Positions 2,257 through 47,222 of a stretch of DNA of 51,027 bases are shown here, piece by piece. The notes below the pieces were generated by a model that did no database searches, was not told the origin of the DNA, and saw only the letters and a list, made by a program, of their open reading frames with translations. A program made the position numbers and the translations under genes. Where the stretch lies: positions 1 to 51,027 of the forward strand of contig JALOLB010000032.1 of assembly GCA_025456225.1 (NCBI GenBank), given 5' to 3'. Source of the DNA: Thermoanaerobaculaceae bacterium (GTDB lineage: Bacteria; Acidobacteriota; Thermoanaerobaculia; Thermoanaerobaculales; Thermoanaerobaculaceae). Numbering within the stretch: the stretch's first letter is position 1; the number at the start of each line of letters is the position of its first letter.

Positions 2257-7025
<4,769 letters not shown>

Positions 7026-7041
7026 CTCCTCCACCCCCCAT

Positions 7042-7228
7042 CCAGGCTCAAGGCTTCAGGCTCAAGGCTCAAGCTCCCCCACCCGCCCGGGCTACAGGCT
7101 CAAGGCTCAAGGCTTCAGCTCCCCCACCCACCCAGATGGGAGGGGGGTCTTGAGCCCTGAGCCTGGAGCCTTGAGCCTGACCGGGTGGGGGGCGGACTTG
7201 AGCCTTGAGCCTGAAGCCTTGAGCCTGG
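7042..7228. repeat. Heptamer element, CTTGAGC family, with 32-nt inverted arms
   Basis: The left arm (7042-7073) and right arm (7197-7228) are perfect reverse complements over 32 nt. Both are built from the 7-nt unit GCTCAAG/CTTGAGC with fixed variants (GCTTCAG). Inner partial arrays lie at about 7091-7113 and 7149-7178. Two copies of the spacer CTCCCCCACCC occur at about 7075 and 7119. It begins 17 nt after the response-regulator stop. A near copy is at 44268-44429. No T-tract follows, so it is not a classical terminator, although a long RNA hairpin could still end or protect the transcript. Confidence 0.9.
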
Positions 7229-7244
7229 GTGTGCGGTGGGAAGG

Positions 7245-7250
7245 TACAAT
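7245..7250 (+). promoter_or_regulatory. Possible -10 element TACAAT
   Basis: TACAAT lies 23 nt before the ATG of the small protein. The best -35-like hexamer, TTGAGC at 7219, falls within the repeat arm at a 20-bp spacing, which is longer than usual. Tentative. Confidence 0.35.
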
Positions 7251-7273
7251 GGGCGGCAAGTGAGGGCGCGACC

Positions 7274-7489
7274 ATGGAGCTGCCTGCCAAGGTGATGGTG
7301 TACAGCCAGATTCTGGGGCTCTCGGGAACCCAGGGGACGCTGGTGGCGGTTCGACCCGACGGCTGCTACGAGCTGCGCCTGCTCAGCCAGGGTCGCACCC
7401 ACCTGGTGCTCCTGCCGGTCGACCAGACCGGGATCGTCTTCGCCGAGCCCGAGCCCGAGGTGCCGCTGGAGATGGGCATCGAGCGGTAA
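7274..7489 (+). CDS. Hypothetical small protein (71 aa)
   Basis: 71 residues (MELPAKVMVYSQILGLSGTQ...) from ATG 7274, with a weak GTGAGGG upstream. The sequence reads like a small beta-rich domain: 'GTLVAVRPDGCYELRLLSQG' then 'THLVLLPVDQTGIVF', ending acidic (AEPEPEVPLEMGIER). There is no signal peptide or membrane segment, and I do not recognise the family. Codon use is GC3-rich like its neighbours and no strong shadow competes in other frames, so I think it is real. It is separated from the response regulator by the heptamer element, so it is probably transcribed independently. Confidence 0.6.
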   Translation: MELPAKVMVYSQILGLSGTQGTLVAVRPDGCYELRLLSQGRTHLVLLPVDQTGIVFAEPEPEVPLEMGIER

Positions 7490-7869
7490 GGTTGGAGGAG
7501 GCGGGCGTCTCGCAGCTTGGCGCGGCAGGATGGAGAGCACCTCGCAAGACGCTCGATCCGCGGGGGCTCGGGGCGTGTGAAGAAATCGCGAGAGAGCGAT
7601 TGGTTGGGCCGTGAGGGCCCTGACGCGGACCCGGTCCCGTGCGTCGGGGCGTTGTGGGGCCAGAAGTGGTCCCACGAGGTGCTTCGGTGACGGCCATGCG
7701 GTGAACGACAGGCTCGCAGCACGTTCGTCCACGTCCACCTCCACGTCCACGCTGCCGGCGGTCACGATCGGCGCCCCGAACGTCCTCACGCCATTGGGTC
7801 ACGACCTCTCGGGCAGCCCCGGGTTTCGATTCGGACGCGGCGGCGGATTCCTCAGATCGGCACGCAGCG
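7490..7869. other. Gene-free stretch with shared motif and hexamer array
   Basis: A 380-bp region between convergent genes. It holds GCGTGTGAAGAAATCG at 7573-7588 (identical to the complement of 28238-28253), a small hairpin AATCGC/GCGATT at 7584-7601, and four GTCCAC-type hexamers at 7727-7750. The ORF-track entry 7611-8144 (+) runs through the hexamers (STSTSTS) and into the regulator gene, and is not supported. No clear terminator is seen for either flanking gene. Confidence 0.6.
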
Positions 7870-12857: not shown

Positions 12858-15800
12858 ATGCGCACAAGCAGGATTTCAAGTCGGGTGTCTGGTTTCTTCC
12901 CCTTGGCAATGGCCGGTGTCGTGCTGGCCACCCTCGCACCTCTTGCGGCCTCGGCCCGCCAGACGCCGGCGCCGATCCCTGCGTCAGACGTGATGACGGG
13001 GTTTCCCTACCACTTCGAGGGCCATGTCTACGCGGGCCCGGTGGGAGACGAGTCCTCGCCGCTTTCGGGTGTGACCGTCTCGCTGTACGGCTCGAACAAC
13101 CCCTGCCCGGCCGAGGGCGCCTACATGAAGAGCGCCACCACCGACGCGAACGGGTGGTTCCGCCTGAGCTACTTCGACGACGAGTACGGTTGGGAGTTCT
13201 TCGCCATCCGCCAGACCAACCTGCCGGGGTACACGTCGGTCGGGGCGACCAGCATCGCCGGCACCGTGTGCACCTCGGACTGGATCCAGCACGGCCTCCC
13301 GCTCGAAGGGAAGAACCTCACCGGCAACACGTTCTGGGACCAGTCTGCGGCCACGCCGACACCGACACCGACGCCGTGGCGGGTGGTGCTCTCGGGCAAG
13401 GTCTTCGCCGGCGAGCCGCCGTACGAGAGCCAGCCGCGTTCCGGTGTCACGGTCTCGTTGTTCGGCTCGAACCGCCGGTACCCGGATCCCGGCACGTTCC
13501 TGCGCAGCGTCGTCACGGACGCGAGCGGCGACTTCACTCTCGTGGTGCGCGAAGGCGACGGGGCGTACCAGCTCTACGCCATCCGGGAGACCAACCCGCC
13601 AGGCTCCACCTCGACCGGCGCGAGCTCGGTCGGCGGCACGGTGCGGGACGCCGACTGGATCGAGTACCAGCCTCCGCTTGTGGGGAAGGTGCTGTCCGAG
13701 AACAAGTTCTGGGACAAGGTCGCGGCCACCGCAACGCCGACCGCAACGCCGACGACCCTTCCCGATGCGACCCACACGCCGACCCGGACCGCCACGCCGA
13801 CGCGGGTCGCGACGAGCACGCCGACTGCCACTGCACCCGTGGCCACCCGGACGCCCACGCCCACACTGCCCCGCCCCACCTTCACCCCGACACCCACCCG
13901 GACACCCACCACCCCACCGGTGTGCCCGGCGCCGGACCAGGCCGGCAACACCTTCGCGACGGCGGGTGTGCTCACTCCGGGGGTGGCGGTCCAGGAGTAC
14001 CTCTGCCCCTCGGGCGATCTCGACTACTGGAAGCTCCACGTCGTCGCGCCGGCCGAGATCAGGGTCTTTCTCTACGACCTCCCACTCGGCCCGCCGGCCG
14101 ACATGGACATCTTCCTGCTCGATCCCGGCGGAGCGCTGCGCAAGTCCGACGAGCGTTGGGGCGCCGACAAGGGCGGCTACATCTCGTTCGACGCCTGGAG
14201 CGACGGCGAGTGGCGGGTCCTGGTGCGCGGCAAGGGGGTGGCGGACTGGAGCAAGACCCACACCTACACGCTCAGGGTCGAGCTTTCCTACCAGTGCTAT
14301 CAGGCAGACGAGGCGGGCAATACCTTCAGCGCCGCAACGCCGATCCTGCCGAGCTTGCCGCAGGGCAACGTCGTGCGCATGCACACAGGAACGATATGCC
14401 CGGCGGGTGACGTCGACTTCTACAGGCTCTCCGTCGGCGGCAGCCAGACCGTCACGATCAACGCCACCCTCACCAACCTCCCGGCCGACTTCGATCTCAT
14501 CCTGCGCAAGCCCGACGGCTCGATCGCGGACTACTCGAACGCCTCGGGCACCTCGGACGAGCACGTCTCGGCCACCTCGACCAACGAGTGGGGCGACTGG
14601 CGGGTCTCGGTCTACGGCCCCGGCGGGACGGTCTACCACTCCCAGCCGTACACCCTCGAGGTGCGCCTGACGAGCACCGCCGACCTGAGCATCCAGGCGA
14701 TCGAGGTCACGCAGGCGATCCAGGACACCTCCAACACGGTGAAGCTGATCCGCGGCAAGCCGACGCTGGCGCGAGTCTACGTCCACCCGGGATCGGCCGT
14801 GACGTGGGCGGCGCCGGTGGAGGTCGAGCTGGCCGGCTGGTTCCGGGACGGCCTCGCCTGGATGCCGTTCCCCGACTCGCCGCGGACCCTCCCTCCGCAG
14901 AAGACCGGGAACGAACCGGTCGCCAACACCAAGCGCGTGGCGCTGGCCTCGAGCTTCAACTTCCTGCTGCCCGCGAGCTGGACCCAGCACGCCCAGCTCC
15001 GGCTCGAGGCCCGCGCCAACCCCAACAAGACGATTGCCGAGACCAGCTTCGCCAACAACACCCTGGCCACCGGCGACCTCGACTTCCGGACGGCCGCGAC
15101 GGTGAACGTCGGCTTCGTGCCGGTGTCGGTGAGCAACGTCGCCCCGAACCTTGCGACCGACCCCCAGTACGCCCGCATGCTCCCGTACGTGCGCTCGGTC
15201 TTTCCGGCCGCTGCCGTCCAGTACTGGGTCAAGACCGGCGGCCCGCTCGCGGTCACCTACGACTTCTCGGTGCAGGGGAGCGGAGGCGGATGCGGTCCCG
15301 CCTGGGTGAGCCTCCTCGGCGACCTCGAGGACATCTACGACAACTGGAGCAACAGGCCCCCCAACGCCTTCGTCTACGGTCTGATCGACAACGCCGTGCC
15401 GTACTGCGCCCCGCCGCCCGGGACGGGCTGCACCTTCGGGTGTGGGAGCATGAGCCGCCCGGTGTCGGAGGGTGTGCTGTACTCGAAGGCCGCCGAGACG
15501 GTCCCGCACGAGATCGGCCACAACTTCGGCCGCGGCCACGCCCCGTGCGGGTTGACCGGTGCCGACCCCAGCTTCCCGACCTACACCAACCCACTCACCG
15601 GCGCGGCCTACCCGAGTGGGCACATCGGCCAGGTGGGCGTGGACGTGCCGGGGTGGCGGGCGTTCGACCCGGCGGTGATTCCCGACCTGATGTCGTACTG
15701 CGACAACCCAACGGCGTGGATCTCGCCATACACCTGGAACGGGATCCTCGCCAAGATGCCGTTCTCTGCCGCGGCGGCGCCCGGCGCGCTGAAGCCGCAC

Positions 15801-18800
15801 CTCGTGGTGAGCGGGGTCGTCACGGGCGGGGCGCTCGCCGCGCTGCGCCCGCTGTGGATCCTGGACCGGGAGGAGGGGCCGTACTCCGGCGAGGGGGAGG
15901 GCTCCTACTCGATCGAGCTGCTCGACGCCTCGGGGCACCGGCTATTCATCCGGCGGTTCGACGTCGAGGACGGCGGGACGGCCCGCCACGCTGCCGGGAT
16001 GTTCCGCGAGACGATGCCGCTCCCGTCCGGGCTCGGCCGGGTGGTCATTGCCCACGAGAGCCAGGCGCTCGAGACCCTGACCGTGAGCCCGCACGCGCCA
16101 AGCGTTCGGGTTTCGTCGCCCAACGGCGGCGAGAGCTGGGCCGGCGCGGGCCCGTACACCGTCGCCTGGACGGCCAGCGACGCCGATGGCGACACACTCA
16201 CGGCGCAGGTCCACTACTCGGCCGACGGCGGGCGGAGCTGGACGCCGCTGGCGGTGAGCGTCGCCGGGCGCCAGCTCGCCGTCGAGGCCGACGACCTGCC
16301 TGGGGCCGTCGGGGCTCTCGTAAAGGTCAGCGTGACCGATGGCGTCAACACCTCGTCGGACGTGAGCGACGCGGCCTTCTCGGTGGCGCCAAAGCCACCG
16401 CAGCTCGTGCTCCTCGATCTCGAGGAGGGCTCACTCCTGCTGCCCACGGCGCGGCCCGCGCTCGCCGCCGCGGCGTTCGACGCCGAGGACGGTCCTCTCG
16501 ACGAGGGAGGCATGGCTTGGTTGTCCAACCGCGACGGCGAGCTCGGCGGCGGCAACTACCTCCCGGTCGCGGGGCTCTCCGCCGGGGTGCACCGGCTGAC
16601 CGCGACAATCGGGGACTCGAGCGACGCCCTCACATCGAAGCACGTGACCGTCACCGCGCTGGGCGACGGCGACGGGCCGCTGTACCTGCTCTCCGCGGCC
16701 GCCCACACGCCCGGCCTTGGCGGCACGACGTGGGTGTCCGACGTGACGCTCCACAACCCGCACACGGTTCCCGTCACCGCGTTCCTCTACTACGCGGCGC
16801 GGGACACCTCCGAGCCGCCGTCGCGGGGCTTCAAGGTCGAGATGCAGCCCGGGCAGAGCAGGACGTTGCCCGACGCGGTCGCTACCGTGACCGGCAGCGC
16901 CGCGTCGACCGCCGGATCCCTGCTCGTGGGTGCCTCGCAGCCGATCCTGGTTGCGGCGCGCACCTTCAACGACGCCGCCACGGGCACCTACGGCCAGCTC
17001 ATCCCTGGCACGCCGTTGCGCGAGAACGTGCGCGGCAACGACCCGGTGCGGCTCATCCAGCTCACCGGCAACGCCGCGTACCGCACCAATGTCGGCTTCG
17101 CCAACGCTGCTGCCGTGCCCCTGGAGGTTGTCGTGAGGCTCGTACGAGCTGACGGGACCTCGCTCGGGACGCGCACCTTCACGGTGCCGCCACTCGGGTA
17201 CCTGCAGGAGACCGACCTCCTGCGCAAGGTGGCGGGAGGCTCGGTGGACGACGCCTATGCCGTGGTCCAGGCGCTGGCCCCCGAGTCCCGCTACCAGGTC
17301 TATGCCTCGGTCGTCGACAACACTTCCGGCGACCCGATCAACGTCATACCCGCGGCGGTGCTGGAGGGGCCGGCCTGGGTGGCGGGGGTGGCGCACCTCG
17401 AAGGGGCCAACGCCACCAACTGGCGCACCGATGTGGAGGTGCTCAACGCCGGGAGCACCCAGGCAACCTTCACCTTCGAGCTGTACCCCCGCGACCAGGC
17501 CGTGAATCGGGGCGTGCACGCCATGGGGCCCTCGACCCGCACCTTCACCCTCGCCCCGCGCCGGGCCATGCGGTACGTCGACGTCGTCAAGGAGGTGTTC
17601 GGGCACACCGGCGGCGCGGCGCTGCGCGTGGTGGCGGTGGCCGGCGACGTCGCGGTCTCCAGCCGCACCTACAACCAGCTCGCCAATCGCACGTACGGGC
17701 AGTACACGGCGGCGATCGGAGAGTCGGCGGCGGTCACGGCCGGGCGCGAGGTGCGTCTCGTGCAGCTCGCGCATTCCCCGGTGCGGACCACCGGGTTCCG
17801 GACCAACGTCGGGCTCGTCAACACGGTGGCGATCCCGACCACCGTGGATCTGGTCCTGCGTGCCCCGGACGGCGCCGAGCTGGGTCGCCGGCAGGTGGCC
17901 CTGCGGTCCTTCGAGAACACGCAGCTCAACGACGTCTTCGCGTCCGTCGGCGCCCCGGCGCTGACGGGCGCCTGTGTGACGGTTGTGTCGCACACCGAGG
18001 ACGCCCGGTTCCTCGCCTACGCATCGGTGGTGGACAACCGCTCGAGTGACCCGGTGTTCATCCCGGCGCGGGAGGTCGAGACCGCCAACCAGGCGGCCAC
18101 AGCCAACCCCGCGGCTGCCGCGGGGCTGTCGTATCATGGTTTCAGAACCACACAACTCGGCGCGCTGGCCCTGCTTGCGGGCCTGGTCCTGGTCGCAGGT
18201 CGAAAGCGCCTAGGGAGGTATGCCGTGGAGAAGACAGCGCGCATCGTCGCCCTCGCCGCGGTGGCCCTGGCCGCCGCATCCCTCGCACTCGCCGGGTTTT
18301 CCGGCACGGACGTCTTCCTGCCGTCGGTGGGGGCCAAGCCCGGGGTGCCGCCGGCGGTGTGGTACACCACCGTGTGGGTGCACAACCCCAACGCCACAGC
18401 GGCGAACGTGACATTCCACCTGCTCGAGCGGCAGGCGAACCTGGCGCCGCTCACCTACACGGACACCATTCCGTCCGGGGACACGAAGAAGTACGACAAC
18501 GCCATCCAGACCATGTTCGCGCGCCAGACCTTCGGGGCGGTGCGCGTGACCTCGAACGTCAAGGTCATCGCCGGGTCGCGCATCTACTCCCAGGCGGGCA
18601 CCCTCGACGACTCGGTGGGGCAGTTCTTCGCCGGCGTGCCGGCGGGGTTCGCCATCGGCGCCGGGCAGAGCACCGAGCTCGTGGGGGTGTACAGCACCCA
18701 GCCGACCGCCGACTCGACCTTCCGCTACAACTTCGGGTTCGTCGAGGTGACCGGGACCGGGACGTGCACCGTGAAGGTGAGCGTGAAGGACCCGACCGGA

Positions 18801-28016: not shown

Positions 28017-28470
28017 ACCCAGGCCTCAGACCTCAGGCCTCAGACCTCAGGCCTCGGGTACGACGGGGAGAGGCCTCAGGCCTCAGACCTCAGAGTTTGT
28101 GAAAAATCTGCTACGAGGGCGGGTTTGTCCTGATAGGCGGAATCCGATGTCCTGCTGTCGGTTGCCGCGTGCAGATGAGGGGTCAAGTGGCCCAGGCGGG
28201 CGTCCGCCGCGGTATGGAGCCAGTCTGAGACACCTCCCGATTTCTTCACACGCTCTCAGGCCTCAGGTGCGACGGGACAAGGCCTCAGGCACGACAGGGC
28301 AAGAAAGAGCTGGGTGGGCGGTGGAGCTGAGGCCTGTAGTTCCTGAGGCCTCTCTTCCCTGAGGCCTGAGGCCGGTCGGGAGGGAGGGCGGAGAACCTGA
28401 GGCCTGTCTTGTCTGCTGAGGCCTGAGGCCGGGTGGCCGGGTTGGGGGGGAACCTGAGGCCGGGCGGGCG
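28017..28470. repeat. Large compound heptamer block, CTGAGGC family
   Basis: This is the largest repeat block in the window. GCCTCAG/ACCTCAG copies fill 28017-28095 and 28255-28295; CTGAGGC copies on the same strand fill about 28330-28460. 'Loop' phrases recur, such as GGTACGACGGG and GGTGCGACGGG, matching TCGTACC in the 27.3-kb element and GGTATGACGGG at 45.7 kb. A 158-bp non-repeat insert (28096-28253) interrupts the array. The 499-bp gap between tdk and nth holds nothing else, and its ORF-track entries are repeat translations. Confidence 0.88.
28096..28253. other. 158-bp insert with inverted ends inside the heptamer block
   Basis: The left end reads TTTGTGAAAAATC and the right end, on the other strand, GCGTGTGAAGAAATC. 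They match as TGTGAA(G)AAATC allowing one gap. The insert is flanked on both sides by CTGAGGC-family units. Its right end matches 7573-7588 exactly over 16 nt and 36683-36696 over 13 of 14. It contains no credible ORF. It could be a small non-autonomous mobile element or an old composite repeat. Confidence 0.5.
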
Positions 28471-40284: not shown

Positions 40285-40432
40285 GACAGCAGATCAGCGA
40301 ATCAGCAGATCGGTGGATCAGGCAGGCAGCCTCGGATGGTTGGGGGAGCTGACGACCTGATGCGCTGGCTTGCCGGGGGGCTACTGGGGCGGGACGGAGC
40401 CGGACCCCGGACCCCGGACCCCGGACCCCGGA
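40285..40432. repeat. Two heptamer-like arrays with the shared spacer
   Basis: Imperfect GATCAGC/GAATCAGC units lie at about 40285-40322. GGGGGAGCT follows at 40342-40350 (the complement of the AGCTCCCCC spacer seen in other blocks). Four perfect CGGACCC heptamers then occupy 40401-40428. The last array lies inside the 3' end of the ligase-like gene on the minus strand. Confidence 0.8.
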
Positions 40433-41898
40433 TCGTGCGGGCGGGAGAGCAGGGCAATGACCGCGTCCTTGCGGACCTTCCCACGCTCGGAGGTCGGCAG
40501 CTCGTCCACCAGCACCAGCCGCCGGGGCAGCTTGTGGGGGGCGAGCATCCGGCGGCACGCTGCCAGGATCGCGGGGACGGTGAGGCCGGCGGCGCGGTCC
40601 ACTTCCACCACCGCCGCGACGAGCTGGCCGCGGTGCTCGTCGGGGAGCCCTGTGACGACCGCGGCGCGCACACCCGGGATCGCTTCCAGGGTGCGACGCA
40701 CCTCGTCCGGGTGGACCTTCTTGCCCGCCACGTTGAGCAGCTCGGCCACCCGGCCGGTGAGGGTGAGGCACCCGTCCGCGTCGAAGACGCCGGAGTCGCC
40801 GGCCAGAAAGCGCCCTCCGCCGATCAGGCCGCCGCGATCGTGTGCCGGAACGGTGCCGCGTGCCACGGCCCCCGAGCGCACCAGCACGCGGCCCTCCTGG
40901 CCCTGCGGCAGGGGGTTGAGCATCTCGTCAACCACGTCCACCCGCACACCCCGCATGGGGCGTCCGACCTGCCCTGGGCGCCGCGTCGCCGGCGGGCCGG
41001 TCTCGTAGGTGATGCCTCCGCATTCGGACGAGCCATAGAAGACGTTGACCCGGTGCCCGGTGAGCGCCTCGAAGGCCTGGGCGTCGGATGGCATCAGAAG
41101 GGCGCCGGCAGTGAGGCAGACCCGCAGGTCGGGCAGCGGGGGGAGGTGGTCGTCCAGGCTCGTGAGTGCCCGGATGTGCGCCGGCACCGCCGGAAAGTGG
41201 GCGACCCGTGCCCGGGTGAGGGTTTCGGCGAGGGCAGGGGGGAGGTTGGAGACCGGGAACGCCTGGGGCGTGCCGGCCAGCAGCAGCGGCACCAGGCACG
41301 AGCCGATGCCGTAGGAGTGGGTCATGGGGATCGCCGCCAGGGTCACGTCGCCCGGACGCACCTGCATCGTGTGCATGATGTTGGCGGAGTCGGTGGCGAG
41401 CTCGCGAGGGCCGACGGCGACGGCGCGCGGCGTCCCGGTGGAGCCCGAGGTGAGCTTGAGCAGCGCCGTGCGGAGGGGTAGCTCCACTGCCGGCACGTCG
41501 TTGCGCAGCCCCAGTGCGACCGACCCGCTCTCCCACGTGGGTCGCACGGCTCCCAGGCGTCCGGGGCAGGCCAGCACGGCCACCGCACCCACCGCGTCGG
41601 CGGCCCGGGTGAGCTCGGCGGACGGGGCGCCCGTGTCCACGAGGGCCACCGGCAGGCCCAGGGCGCGCAGGGCGCCAAAGGCCGTCACGAGATCGGGGCC
41701 GTTGGGCAGCGAGAGGGCGACGGCGCGATCGGGCGGGAGGAGGGGCGCAAGCACTCCGGCCAGCTCGGTGATCCGGGACGCGAGCTGCCCTCGTGTCGCC
41801 AGCACCTCGCCTCGCGCGCCGAGCAGTGCCGGCGTGTCGGGAGCGAGGGACGCGAGGGAGAGGTACCGCCTCAGAAGCGGGCAGGCGGCTCTACTCAC
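40381..41898 (-). CDS. AMP-dependent synthetase / acyl-CoA ligase-like enzyme
   Basis: 505 residues from GTG 41898, overlapping the upstream gene by 8 nt. Adenylate-forming core motifs are in order: 'LTSGSTGTPRAV' (P-loop-like; Arg replaces the usual Lys), 'FYGSSECGG', 'GDSGVFDADGCLTLTGR', and the C-terminal 'PTSERGKVRKDAV' with the catalytic lysine. It should activate a carboxylate to an acyl-AMP and then a thioester. MenE is a possibility given menC in the window, but the distance is 14 kb and the neighbours differ, so I leave it unnamed. The last 16 or so residues (GSGVRGPGSGSVPPQ) are encoded by CGGACCC repeats, a probable extension. Confidence 0.82.
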   Translation of the reverse strand: MSRAACPLLRRYLSLASLAPDTPALLGARGEVLATRGQLASRITELAGVLAPLLPPDRAVALSLPNGPDLVTAFGALRALGLPVALVDTGAPSAELTRAADAVGAVAVLACPGRLGAVRPTWESGSVALGLRNDVPAVELPLRTALLKLTSGSTGTPRAVAVGPRELATDSANIMHTMQVRPGDVTLAAIPMTHSYGIGSCLVPLLLAGTPQAFPVSNLPPALAETLTRARVAHFPAVPAHIRALTSLDDHLPPLPDLRVCLTAGALLMPSDAQAFEALTGHRVNVFYGSSECGGITYETGPPATRRPGQVGRPMRGVRVDVVDEMLNPLPQGQEGRVLVRSGAVARGTVPAHDRGGLIGGGRFLAGDSGVFDADGCLTLTGRVAELLNVAGKKVHPDEVRRTLEAIPGVRAAVVTGLPDEHRGQLVAAVVEVDRAAGLTVPAILAACRRMLAPHKLPRRLVLVDELPTSERGKVRKDAVIALLSRPHDPGSGVRGPGSGSVPPQ

Positions 41899-44267: not shown

Positions 44268-44429
44268 CAGGCTCAAGATCCCCCACCCGCCCGGGGAGGC
44301 TCAAGGCTACAGGCTCAAGGCTCAAGGTCCACCGCCCACCCATATCAAGGTAGGAACACTTCAAGGGAGGGTGGGGGAGCCTTGAGCCTTGAGCCTTGAG
44401 CCTTGAGCCTTGAGCCTTGAGCCTGAAGC
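44268..44429. repeat. Heptamer element, CTTGAGC family (copy of 7042-7228)
   Basis: The left arm at 44297-44326 matches 7044-7073 at 29 of 30 positions. The right array is six perfect CTTGAGC units (44381-44422) plus CTGAAGC. CCCCCACCCGCCCGGG occurs both here (near 44280) and near 7076. The complementary spacer GGGTGGGGGAG lies at about 44369-44379. It sits between the amidohydrolase promoter and the terminator of tRNA-Gly. Confidence 0.9.
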
Positions 44430-44453
44430 CCGGTTAAGCGGGGGAGAGGCACG

Positions 44454-44475
44454 AAAAAAGGGTGCCGAGGCACCC
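44454..44475 (-). terminator. Rho-independent terminator of tRNA-Gly
   Basis: On the minus strand: GGGTGC, loop CTCG, GCACCC, then six T. It lies 17 nt past the tRNA CCA end. Confidence 0.92.
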
Positions 44476-44491
44476 CAGGAGCTGGATGAGT

Positions 44492-44566
44492 TGGAGCGGG
44501 AAACGGGAGTTGAACCCGCGACTTCGACCTTGGCAAGGTCGCACTCTACCACTGAGTTATTCCCGC
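44492..44566 (-). tRNA. tRNA-Gly(GCC)
   Basis: 75 nt including CCA. Acceptor GCGGGAA/TTCCCGC, D-arm ACTC..GAGT, anticodon stem CGACC/GGTCG with loop TTGCCAA (anticodon GCC), T-arm with GTTCAACTC. It reads GGC/GGU glycine codons. A strong terminator follows; the gene lies 52 nt downstream of the potassium-channel stop, so read-through from it is possible. Confidence 0.97.
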
Positions 44567-44618: not shown

Positions 44619-45638
44619 TCAAGAGCCCGCGGCGGCGAGGGGCGCGAGCTCGCGGACGAAGCGGTCGAAGCCCGTGAGCTGCTCGCGGGTCCCGAGCACC
44701 ACCAGGGTGTCGCCGGAGGCGAATCGGAAGCCCGCCTCCGGGTTGGGGTGGAGCGACGCCTCGCGCCACACGGCCACCACGCCGACCCCGCAGCGACGGC
44801 GCAGATCCAGCTCGGCGAGGGTGCGGCCGGCGAGCGGGTTGCCCTCGGCGAGGCGCACCTGCTCGAGCTCGAGCCCCGGGGTCTCGGCGGCGTTGAGCGA
44901 CAGGTCCACGAAGTCGATGACCGTGGGCTTGAGGAGGATGTGGGCGAGGCGCGTGCCGCCGTGCTGGTAGGGGTTGACGGCGCGGTTGGCGCCGGCGCGC
45001 AGGATGCGGGCCTCGGCGCCCTCCTCCCCGGCGCGCGCGACGATGAACAGGTCGGGGTTGAGGGAGCGGGCGGTGAGCACGGTGTAGACGTTGCGCGCGT
45101 CGTCGTTGAGGCAGGCGACCAGGCCGCGGGCGCGCCCGATCCCGGCAGCCAGCAGGGAGGCCTCGGCGGTGGCGTCTCCGGCCACCACCGGCAGGTTCAT
45201 GCCCTGCAGCTTGGCCACCTTGACGGGGTCCTGCTCGATCACGGCCACGGCGCGGCCGGCCCGCCGCAGCTCGGCCACCACGGCGCGCCCCATGCGTCCC
45301 CACCCGCAGACGATCTCGTGCCCGGAGAGATTGCCGATCATGCGTGACCTCCGCACCTGACCCAGGATCTCGCGCAGCTCCCCCTCCAGTACCGTGCGCC
45401 CGATGTGGGTGGCGATGAGGAGGATCAACCCCAGCCCCGAGACCAGGAGGGCGACCGTGAAGGCCTCCCCCGCCGTCGACAGCGGGAACACCTCCCGGTA
45501 GCCGACGGTGGTGAGGGTGATGGCCGTCATGTAGAAGGCGTCCCACAGGGGCGCTCTCTCGATGACCACGTAGCCCACGGTCCCGACGGTGAACACCGCC
45601 GCCAGCATGAGCAGCGACTTGAGGAGTCGGGACTGCAT
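44619..45638 (-). CDS. Potassium channel with TrkA-N/TrkA-C (KTN/RCK) domains
   Basis: 339 residues. Two membrane helices frame a pore loop 'AITLTTVGYREVFPLS': the TVGY filter is intact but the usual GD after it is RE. A KTN domain (about 107-225) has the Rossmann motif 'CGWGRMGRAVVAEL' and 'VVAGDATAEASLLAAGI', and a TrkA-C domain ends the protein ('GDTLVVLGTREQLTGF'). It probably forms a ligand-gated K+ channel. ATG 45638 coincides with the predicted transcript start (TAGACT, 6-nt gap). Confidence 0.9.
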   Translation of the reverse strand: MQSRLLKSLLMLAAVFTVGTVGYVVIERAPLWDAFYMTAITLTTVGYREVFPLSTAGEAFTVALLVSGLGLILLIATHIGRTVLEGELREILGQVRRSRMIGNLSGHEIVCGWGRMGRAVVAELRRAGRAVAVIEQDPVKVAKLQGMNLPVVAGDATAEASLLAAGIGRARGLVACLNDDARNVYTVLTARSLNPDLFIVARAGEEGAEARILRAGANRAVNPYQHGGTRLAHILLKPTVIDFVDLSLNAAETPGLELEQVRLAEGNPLAGRTLAELDLRRRCGVGVVAVWREASLHPNPEAGFRFASGDTLVVLGTREQLTGFDRFVRELAPLAAAGS

Positions 45639-46786: not shown

Positions 46787-46886
46787 GTCCAAGTCCAAGT
46801 CCAAGTCCAGGTCCAGGTCCAGGCCCACGAAACTGGAGCGACAGGAGTGGGTGGGGGACTCTCCCCTCTCCCCTCTCCCCTCTCCC
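46787..46886. repeat. Back-to-back hexamer and heptamer arrays
   Basis: Six hexamers (three GTCCAA then three GTCCAG) at 46787-46822, a GGGTGGGGGA spacer near 46849-46858, then four perfect CTCTCCC heptamers at 46859-46886. The array ends 6 nt from the trxA stop codon on the minus strand. Confidence 0.9.
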
Positions 46887-46892
46887 CTGTCT

Positions 46893-47222
46893 CTACAGCA
46901 GGGCCTGCAGCTTCTTCTTGATGTCGTCCTTCTTGTGCTGGCCGCCGACCATGCGGTCGACGACCTGGCCGCCCTGGAAGAACAGCATGGTCGGAATGGA
47001 CTGGATGCCGAACCTGGAGGCCACGCCCCGGTTGGAGTCCACGTCCACCTTGGCCACCACCACCTGGCCGGCCATCTCGGTGGCGACGGCCTCGACGTGC
47101 GGGGCGACCATCTTGCACGGGCCGCACCAGACGGCCCAGAAGTCGACGACGGCCGGCTTGTCGGCCTTCAGGATGATCTGCTCGAACGTCGCATCGGTGA
47201 CCTCGATCGTGTTGCCTGCCAT
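46893..47222 (-). CDS. trxA: Thioredoxin
   Basis: 109 residues, the standard single-domain length, with active site 'WCGPC' preceded by 'VVDFWAV', the cis-proline loop 'GIQSIPTMLFF' and the C-terminal helix 'KKDDIKKKLQALL'. It is a cytoplasmic dithiol-disulphide reductant. ATG 47222 has a GGAGGAAG site; the ORF-track start at 47363 overlaps rsmA. Its promoter is probably the TACAAT at 47340-47335, shared with the divergent rsmA. Confidence 0.95.
   Translation of the reverse strand: MAGNTIEVTDATFEQIILKADKPAVVDFWAVWCGPCKMVAPHVEAVATEMAGQVVVAKVDVDSNRGVASRFGIQSIPTMLFFQGGQVVDRMVGGQHKKDDIKKKLQALL

Follow-up and report, generated by a model that had tools for sequence, protein, structure and literature searches.

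A perfect 32-nt palindrome as one of many heptad-built hairpins next to stop codons in a Thermoanaerobaculaceae genome

How do two arms of a palindrome, each a string of imperfect heptamers, come to carry the same variant units in mirror order? The question is raised by positions 7042-7073 and 7197-7228 of contig JALOLB010000032.1 from a Thermoanaerobaculaceae bacterium, analyzed over its 51,027 nucleotides (hereafter the window). The two arms are indeed exact reverse complements over 32 nt, and the original prediction held that independent slippage would not produce such a match, so that arm-to-arm copying, selection on a stem, or mobility was implied.

The locus lies downstream of a gene for an NtrC-type sigma-54 response regulator (5607-7025, plus strand, assigned by Pfam), whose best named relatives are just 51% identical and whose TAG stop codon at 7023-7025 is backed by a congener alignment. 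A C-rich leader linker (7029-7041, plus strand), recognized from the sequence and from C-linker counts at gene 3' ends, connects this stop codon to the first heptad array. The outer forward arm (7042-7073, plus strand) carries the module GGCTCAA-GGCTTCA-GGCTCAA-GGCTCAA, its first GGCT lying 19 nt past the stop, and is followed on the same strand by the C-rich linker CCCCCACCCGCCCGGG (7076-7091) and by a second, inner forward array with the unit string d-a-a-b (7089-7118). Sequence and fold then place a C-rich linker, a short loop near AGAT, and a G-rich linker at 7119-7149. On the minus strand, an inner reverse array (7150-7179) pairs imperfectly with 7089-7118, a G-rich linker ACCGGGTGGGGGGCGGA (7180-7196) reads as G4-like on the plus strand, and the outer reverse arm (7197-7228) is the same module as 7042-7073 in the opposite orientation. 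When folded as RNA, 7020-7250 reaches -180.8 kcal/mol (z = -15.2), a value that none of 200 shuffles equaled. No T-run terminator was found across 6900-7600. Downstream follows a small ORF of 71 aa (7274-7489, plus strand) with no Pfam match, whose position next to the regulator is conserved in relatives. Heptamers of this kind are above chance in the window, with 27 matches to the 14-mer AGGCTCAAGGCTCA at up to three mismatches where 4.7 are expected.

A second element, at 44268-44429, repeats the left arm at 29 of 30 positions (44297-44326 against 7044-7073) and shares the spacer CCCCCACCCGCCCGGG (44281-44296), as originally described. It folds at z = -7.3 and comprises, on the plus strand, a short first forward unit CAGGCTCAAG (44268-44277), the C-rich linker just named, a forward array of the form a-d-a-a (44297-44326), and the loop ATATCAAGGTAGGAACACTTCAAGGGAGGG (44342-44372), followed on the minus strand by a reverse array grown to about 8 units (44376-44430). 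This unique loop is common to seven copies in the genome, in which the right arm ranges from about 2 to 11 units, and the sharing of such a loop indicates that whole hairpins have been copied between loci. Next to the element, and apart from it, an ordinary hairpin with a T-run, read from the sequence (44449-44480, minus strand, ending in six T), serves as terminator for a tRNA gene (44495-44566); termination at this site therefore does not require the heptad hairpin. The congener has an equivalent of this terminator hairpin. It has no match at the corresponding place to the TrkA/ion-channel gene beside the tRNA (44619-45638), and its next matching stretch begins within about 140 bp of the tRNA counterpart.

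The module itself is widely dispersed: the 14-mer occurs 100 times in the 4.88-Mb draft genome, which, together with the seven-copy loop subfamily, bears out the description of the unit as a dispersed element and the view that independent slippage was not the source of the dispersed module. Among the 102 arrays collected for this family (family A, consensus GGCTCAA-GGCTNCA-GGCTCAA-GGCTCAA), 56 have four units, and the commonest version of these (22 of 56) is exactly the arrangement found in the outer arms. Two random four-unit arrays of the genome are identical with a probability of 0.20. A perfect palindrome made of the commonest arrangement therefore needs no special mechanism, and the inference drawn from a match that is perfect despite imperfect heptamers, while correct as to the match, is weaker than it looks. 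Family-A arrays also occur within about 115 bp of the ends of seven contigs (C112, C114, C208, C316, C317, C426, and C435), and these repeats probably break the assembly. The module is specific to this lineage, a 23-mer GGCTCAAGGCTTCAGGCTCAAGG being present in 31 copies here but absent from all 148 other class genomes, the congener among them; a related 16-mer was likewise absent from 59 relatives. An origin in a phage or another named genome was rejected, as the exact 25-mer is absent from viral and GTDB contig collections.

If one arm had templated the other, arms should resemble each other more within hairpins than between them. Across 20 forward/reverse pairs, identity within hairpins was 0.9266 against 0.9267 +/- 0.008 with arms shuffled, and 263 of 500 shuffles were as high, which speaks against arm-to-arm copying. 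Selection acting pair by pair on the stem fares no better: besides this negative shuffle test, compensatory changes were seen at 0 of 30 pairs in the seven loop-sharing copies, a comparison of low power since most pairs are invariant. Left-arm variants (TTC, TAC, and TCC) in these copies lack a mirror change on the right, and in an orthologous hairpin of the congener, built from another heptamer family, the arms have by inspection changed independently. Arms diverging independently in other copies, the outcome named in advance as contrary to a pairing constraint, are thus what we observed. In addition, about two thirds of family-A sites (44/64) carry the module in a single orientation, and hence not every site has a matched stem. 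Equal arm identity within and between hairpins and the lack of compensatory changes point to two draws from one pool: the arms match since both are common copies of one dispersed module, and neither templated the other.

The palindrome belongs to a class of modular hairpins found throughout the genome. In 626 kb of the genome, noncoding DNA contains 153 arrays at period 7 and 0-1 at periods 4, 5, 8-11, and 13, with 16 and 13 at periods 6 and 12, while coding DNA contains 23 at period 7. Gene calls came from a home-made coding-score caller based on simple codon usage, and since this sample of ~0.63 Mb was partly picked for containing the A module, per-family counts are not genome-wide frequencies. 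The arrays use at least seven unrelated heptamers (GGCTCAA, GGCCTCA, GGACCCC, CTCTCGA, CCGATCA, CCTTCGA, and CCCCTCT), and the window itself holds arrays of the GGCCTCA (59-151 and 28020-28058), GGACCCC (40396-40437), and CCCCTCT (46856-46894) families. A 50-kb stretch of E. coli K-12 contained no heptad arrays. Four units are the mode in families A and D (21 of 46 arrays in the latter); in families B, E, Q, and J, two-unit runs are commoner under the same exact patterns. Very dense mosaics, with several heptamer families per intergenic gap, were seen in L147 at 14870-15700 and 17470-18360.

These arrays are organized into hairpins. An inverted partner lies within 300 bp of 102 of 195 noncoding arrays, against 23.7 expected, and heptad-bearing gaps fold at a median z of -2.9 versus -0.3 in other gaps. 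Family A shows 35 forward-then-reverse pairs and no reverse-then-forward pair, and the other families with adjacent inverted arrays each keep to one order, with a single exception. Linkers CCNCCNCCCNCCC, whose opposite strand is a G-quadruplex-like motif, flank the arrays; as G-linkers GGGNGGGNGGNGG, they number 156 in noncoding DNA versus 6.2 in shuffles (25x) and 20 in six times more coding DNA, and 112 of the 156 lie within 12 nt of an array. Their tracts are fixed, and the single spacer bases vary freely. The family A unit has no G-run of three, G4-like sequence being confined to the linkers and to families of the GGGGTCC type. Each hairpin is built from arrays of about four 7-nt units with 12-16-nt C-rich linkers between them. 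Read along the mRNA strand, the stop codon is followed by a C-linker, a heptad array, another C-linker, (a second array), the loop, a G-linker, the reverse array, and a final G-linker.

These hairpins sit against stop codons with a fixed polarity. Family-A sense arrays start at a median of 20 nt past the stop codon, and 38 of 56 lie within 40 nt of it, compared with 2 of 44 in the opposite orientation (Fisher P = 2e-11). The narrow interval of 14-23 nt past the stop alone holds 29 of the 56, against 2.8 +/- 1.6 under uniform placement. The same crowding at stop codons, again in one constant orientation (opposite to the naming orientation used here), is seen in families D, E, Q, and J, and a C-linker occurs in the first 40 nt past the stop at 28 of 106 heptad-bearing 3' ends versus 2 of 102 others. 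Some arrays (14 of 81) lie between divergent genes and so have no stop nearby. In a 216-kb subset (contigs 1-20 and the window, chosen regardless of family A except for the window itself), arrays occur in all four gene-pair contexts, and convergent gaps show no clear excess. Stop anchoring could be a permissive-site effect instead of a function.

Heptamer families are lineage-specific, and the period of 7 and the hairpin layout recur in relatives, which were sampled at up to 20 kb per genome and about 86 kb for the congener. The spacing between regulator and small ORF is about 20-40 bp in four family members, about 90 bp in the congener, and 248 bp here. In the congener, orthologous gaps of contig C324 either carry hairpins whose heptamers differ in part or are much shorter, one such gap measuring 282 bp here and 45 bp in the congener. 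Across the class, we found other heptamers (TGGATGC, CTCTCAG, TGCTGAG, CAGAGAT, and more), some of them inverted and almost only at period 7; one relative (G022; L261, 11181-11916) has long TGGATGC arrays with inverse copies some 600 bp away. The preference for stops is weak among relatives, congener included, with 10 arrays within 40 nt of a stop and 5 within 40 nt of a start. In 528 kb from named bacteria of other phyla, 12 arrays were detected at period 7, and no other period had more than 4. Sequences from Lentisphaerae (L153), Nitrospinae (L183), Limisphaerales (L215), and Desulfobacterales (L160) contain period-7 arrays built from heptamers of their own, with two different heptad families side by side in L153.

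Several known categories were compared with these elements. The heptad hairpin is not a U-tract terminator, and an intrinsic terminator was rejected more generally, with 0 of 46 reverse arms followed by TTTT in the next 15 nt. An Rfam covariance-model search of the window returned two tRNAs only and no known RNA family for the hairpins. At 19 elements, the longest repeat shared by the flanks was 5.3 nt, against 5.3 nt in shuffled flanks, and the elements were rejected as MITEs for this lack of target-site duplication. Six genes in the genome exceed the Y1_Tnp cut-off, in a transposase search that covered this family only, and no heptad array or module lies within about 1.5 kb of any of them; RAYT/REP membership was rejected on these grounds. 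The proposed mobility accordingly holds in part: whole hairpins have spread, as the shared loop attests, and classical transposition, with neither target duplication nor arrays near Y1 genes, has found no support.

We lean towards interpreting these elements as stop-anchored 3'-UTR hairpins, REP-like in placement and heptad-built, that keep their period and position as their sequence is replaced. Such an element would be transcribed as a stem-loop beginning just beyond the footprint of the terminating ribosome; by analogy with E. coli REP/BIME, its stem may act as a road-block and so protect or define the 3' end of the mRNA, and it might also insulate the next gene. Families would spread when hairpins already present at separate loci recombine or undergo gene conversion with each other, and slippage, retained as a cause of unit-number variation only, would alter the number of units. 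A bolder proposal, which we consider improbable, is that a dedicated heptad-writing or -reading machinery, present class-wide, keeps building four-heptad hairpins after stops, period and position being inherited and the heptamer repeatedly replaced. If true, genomes would carry register-only 3'-end elements that are largely sequence-independent.

Among the alternatives, the one we take most seriously, though still unlikely, is a selfish or neutral repeat without host function, multiplied by an unknown copying process and surviving mainly just past stops as the least harmful site. The species-specific burst (31 copies of the 23-mer against none in 148 class genomes), the spread of right-arm lengths among the loop-sharing copies (about 2 to 11 units), and the freely diverging arms all fit this account, and insertion targeting could yield both the 14-23 nt peak and the polarity; neutral tolerance alone predicts neither of these (38/56 versus 2/44), nor linkers with fixed tracts and free spacers. 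An improbable reading is that the arrays are cooperative sites for a protein, nucleoid-associated or RNA-binding, that works in a 7-nt register. The constant period and the recurrence of four-unit arrays whatever the sequence would suit such a protein, and the four- and five-heptad elements of Geobacter metallireducens were proposed as regulator or IHF/HU sites (PMC2700814), but at least seven unrelated heptamers would require seven readers or a sequence-blind one, and no candidate protein was identified. We give slightly less credence still to a G-quadruplex or i-motif function, in which linkers and heptads such as GGGGTCC would be the functional parts and the A heptads spacers: free spacer bases in a G-linker 25 times above shuffles, and the G4-forming heptads of Xanthomonas and Nostoc near stop codons (PMC4692102), are as expected, but arrays that lack G-runs (GGCTCAA, CTCTCGA, and CCGATCA) have this period and placement too, and G4 formation by itself therefore cannot account for the arrays.

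Two further explanations appear very improbable. Arm-to-arm copying by gene conversion or intrastrand correction, or pairing selection through compensatory change, would account for the one perfect 32-bp pair and for long stems of very low folding energy, but meets the equal identity of true and shuffled pairs, the unmirrored variants, and the 0 of 30 compensatory pairs (at low power). To much the same degree, we doubt that these are true REP/BIME elements mobilized by a RAYT (Y1 tyrosine transposase): the elements are palindromic, dispersed, and extragenic near gene 3' ends, close to stops, as REP/BIME are, in a genome with six Y1_Tnp genes, but these genes lack nearby arrays, and where REP/BIME would have a 20-40-nt palindrome, the unit here is a heptad array of about 30 nt.

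Heptameric repeats have long been noted as over-represented in bacteria, with a unifying explanation wanting (PMC4692102). In E. coli, REP hairpins 1-20 nt past the stop are common, those closer than 16 nt stall ribosomes, and REP/BIME influence translation and mRNA stability (PMC12306157 and work cited there); they are extragenic hairpins near stops as here, but are not heptad-based, and their RAYT association was not found in this genome. MITEs are likewise short dispersed inverted repeats without genes, but neither target-site duplication nor, among Y1_Tnp genes, a cognate transposase was found here. TAACTGA direct repeats of Beggiatoaceae, Cyanobacteria, and Bacteroidetes (MacGregor 2015, PMC4679880) resemble the present elements as abundant intergenic heptamer arrays, but lie mostly just upstream of starts, are direct instead of inverted, and use a single heptamer.

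The closest counterparts are the GGGAATC and GGGGA(T/C)T repeats of Xanthomonas and Nostoc (Rehm et al. 2015, PMC4692102) and the GGGACCG elements of Geobacter metallireducens (PMC2700814). The former share with the arrays described here an intergenic location, four units as the commonest number, and a position within 50 bp of stops on the coding strand, and are sometimes inverted between convergent genes; they differ in forming one G4-forming family per genome studied, against at least seven mostly non-G4 families here, and in the C-rich linkers, nested modular hairpins, and fixed polarity seen in this genome. G-run-free families behave alike, which speaks against a general validity of the G-quadruplex account of Xanthomonas-type heptads, and since family A lacks G-runs, heptad quadruplexes are not the common denominator. 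In Geobacter metallireducens, four-heptanucleotide elements in 49 copies and five-heptad opposite-strand pairs are described, and thus, as here, dispersed four-heptad modules, several families per genome, and opposite-strand pairs of others; they are read there as regulator-binding or RNA elements, and stop placement and a C-rich linker are not reported in the available part of that paper. The Xanthomonas/Nostoc and Geobacter elements are the same kind of thing, a kind that this genome extends with its many families, the linkers they share, a nested modular hairpin design, and strict polarity. This genome is an unusually rich case, in which many families have the period, the linker, and the position relative to stops in common, along with a recurrent unit number. 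It also offers concrete, testable loci at which the congener has a different hairpin or much less DNA at the same gene junction.
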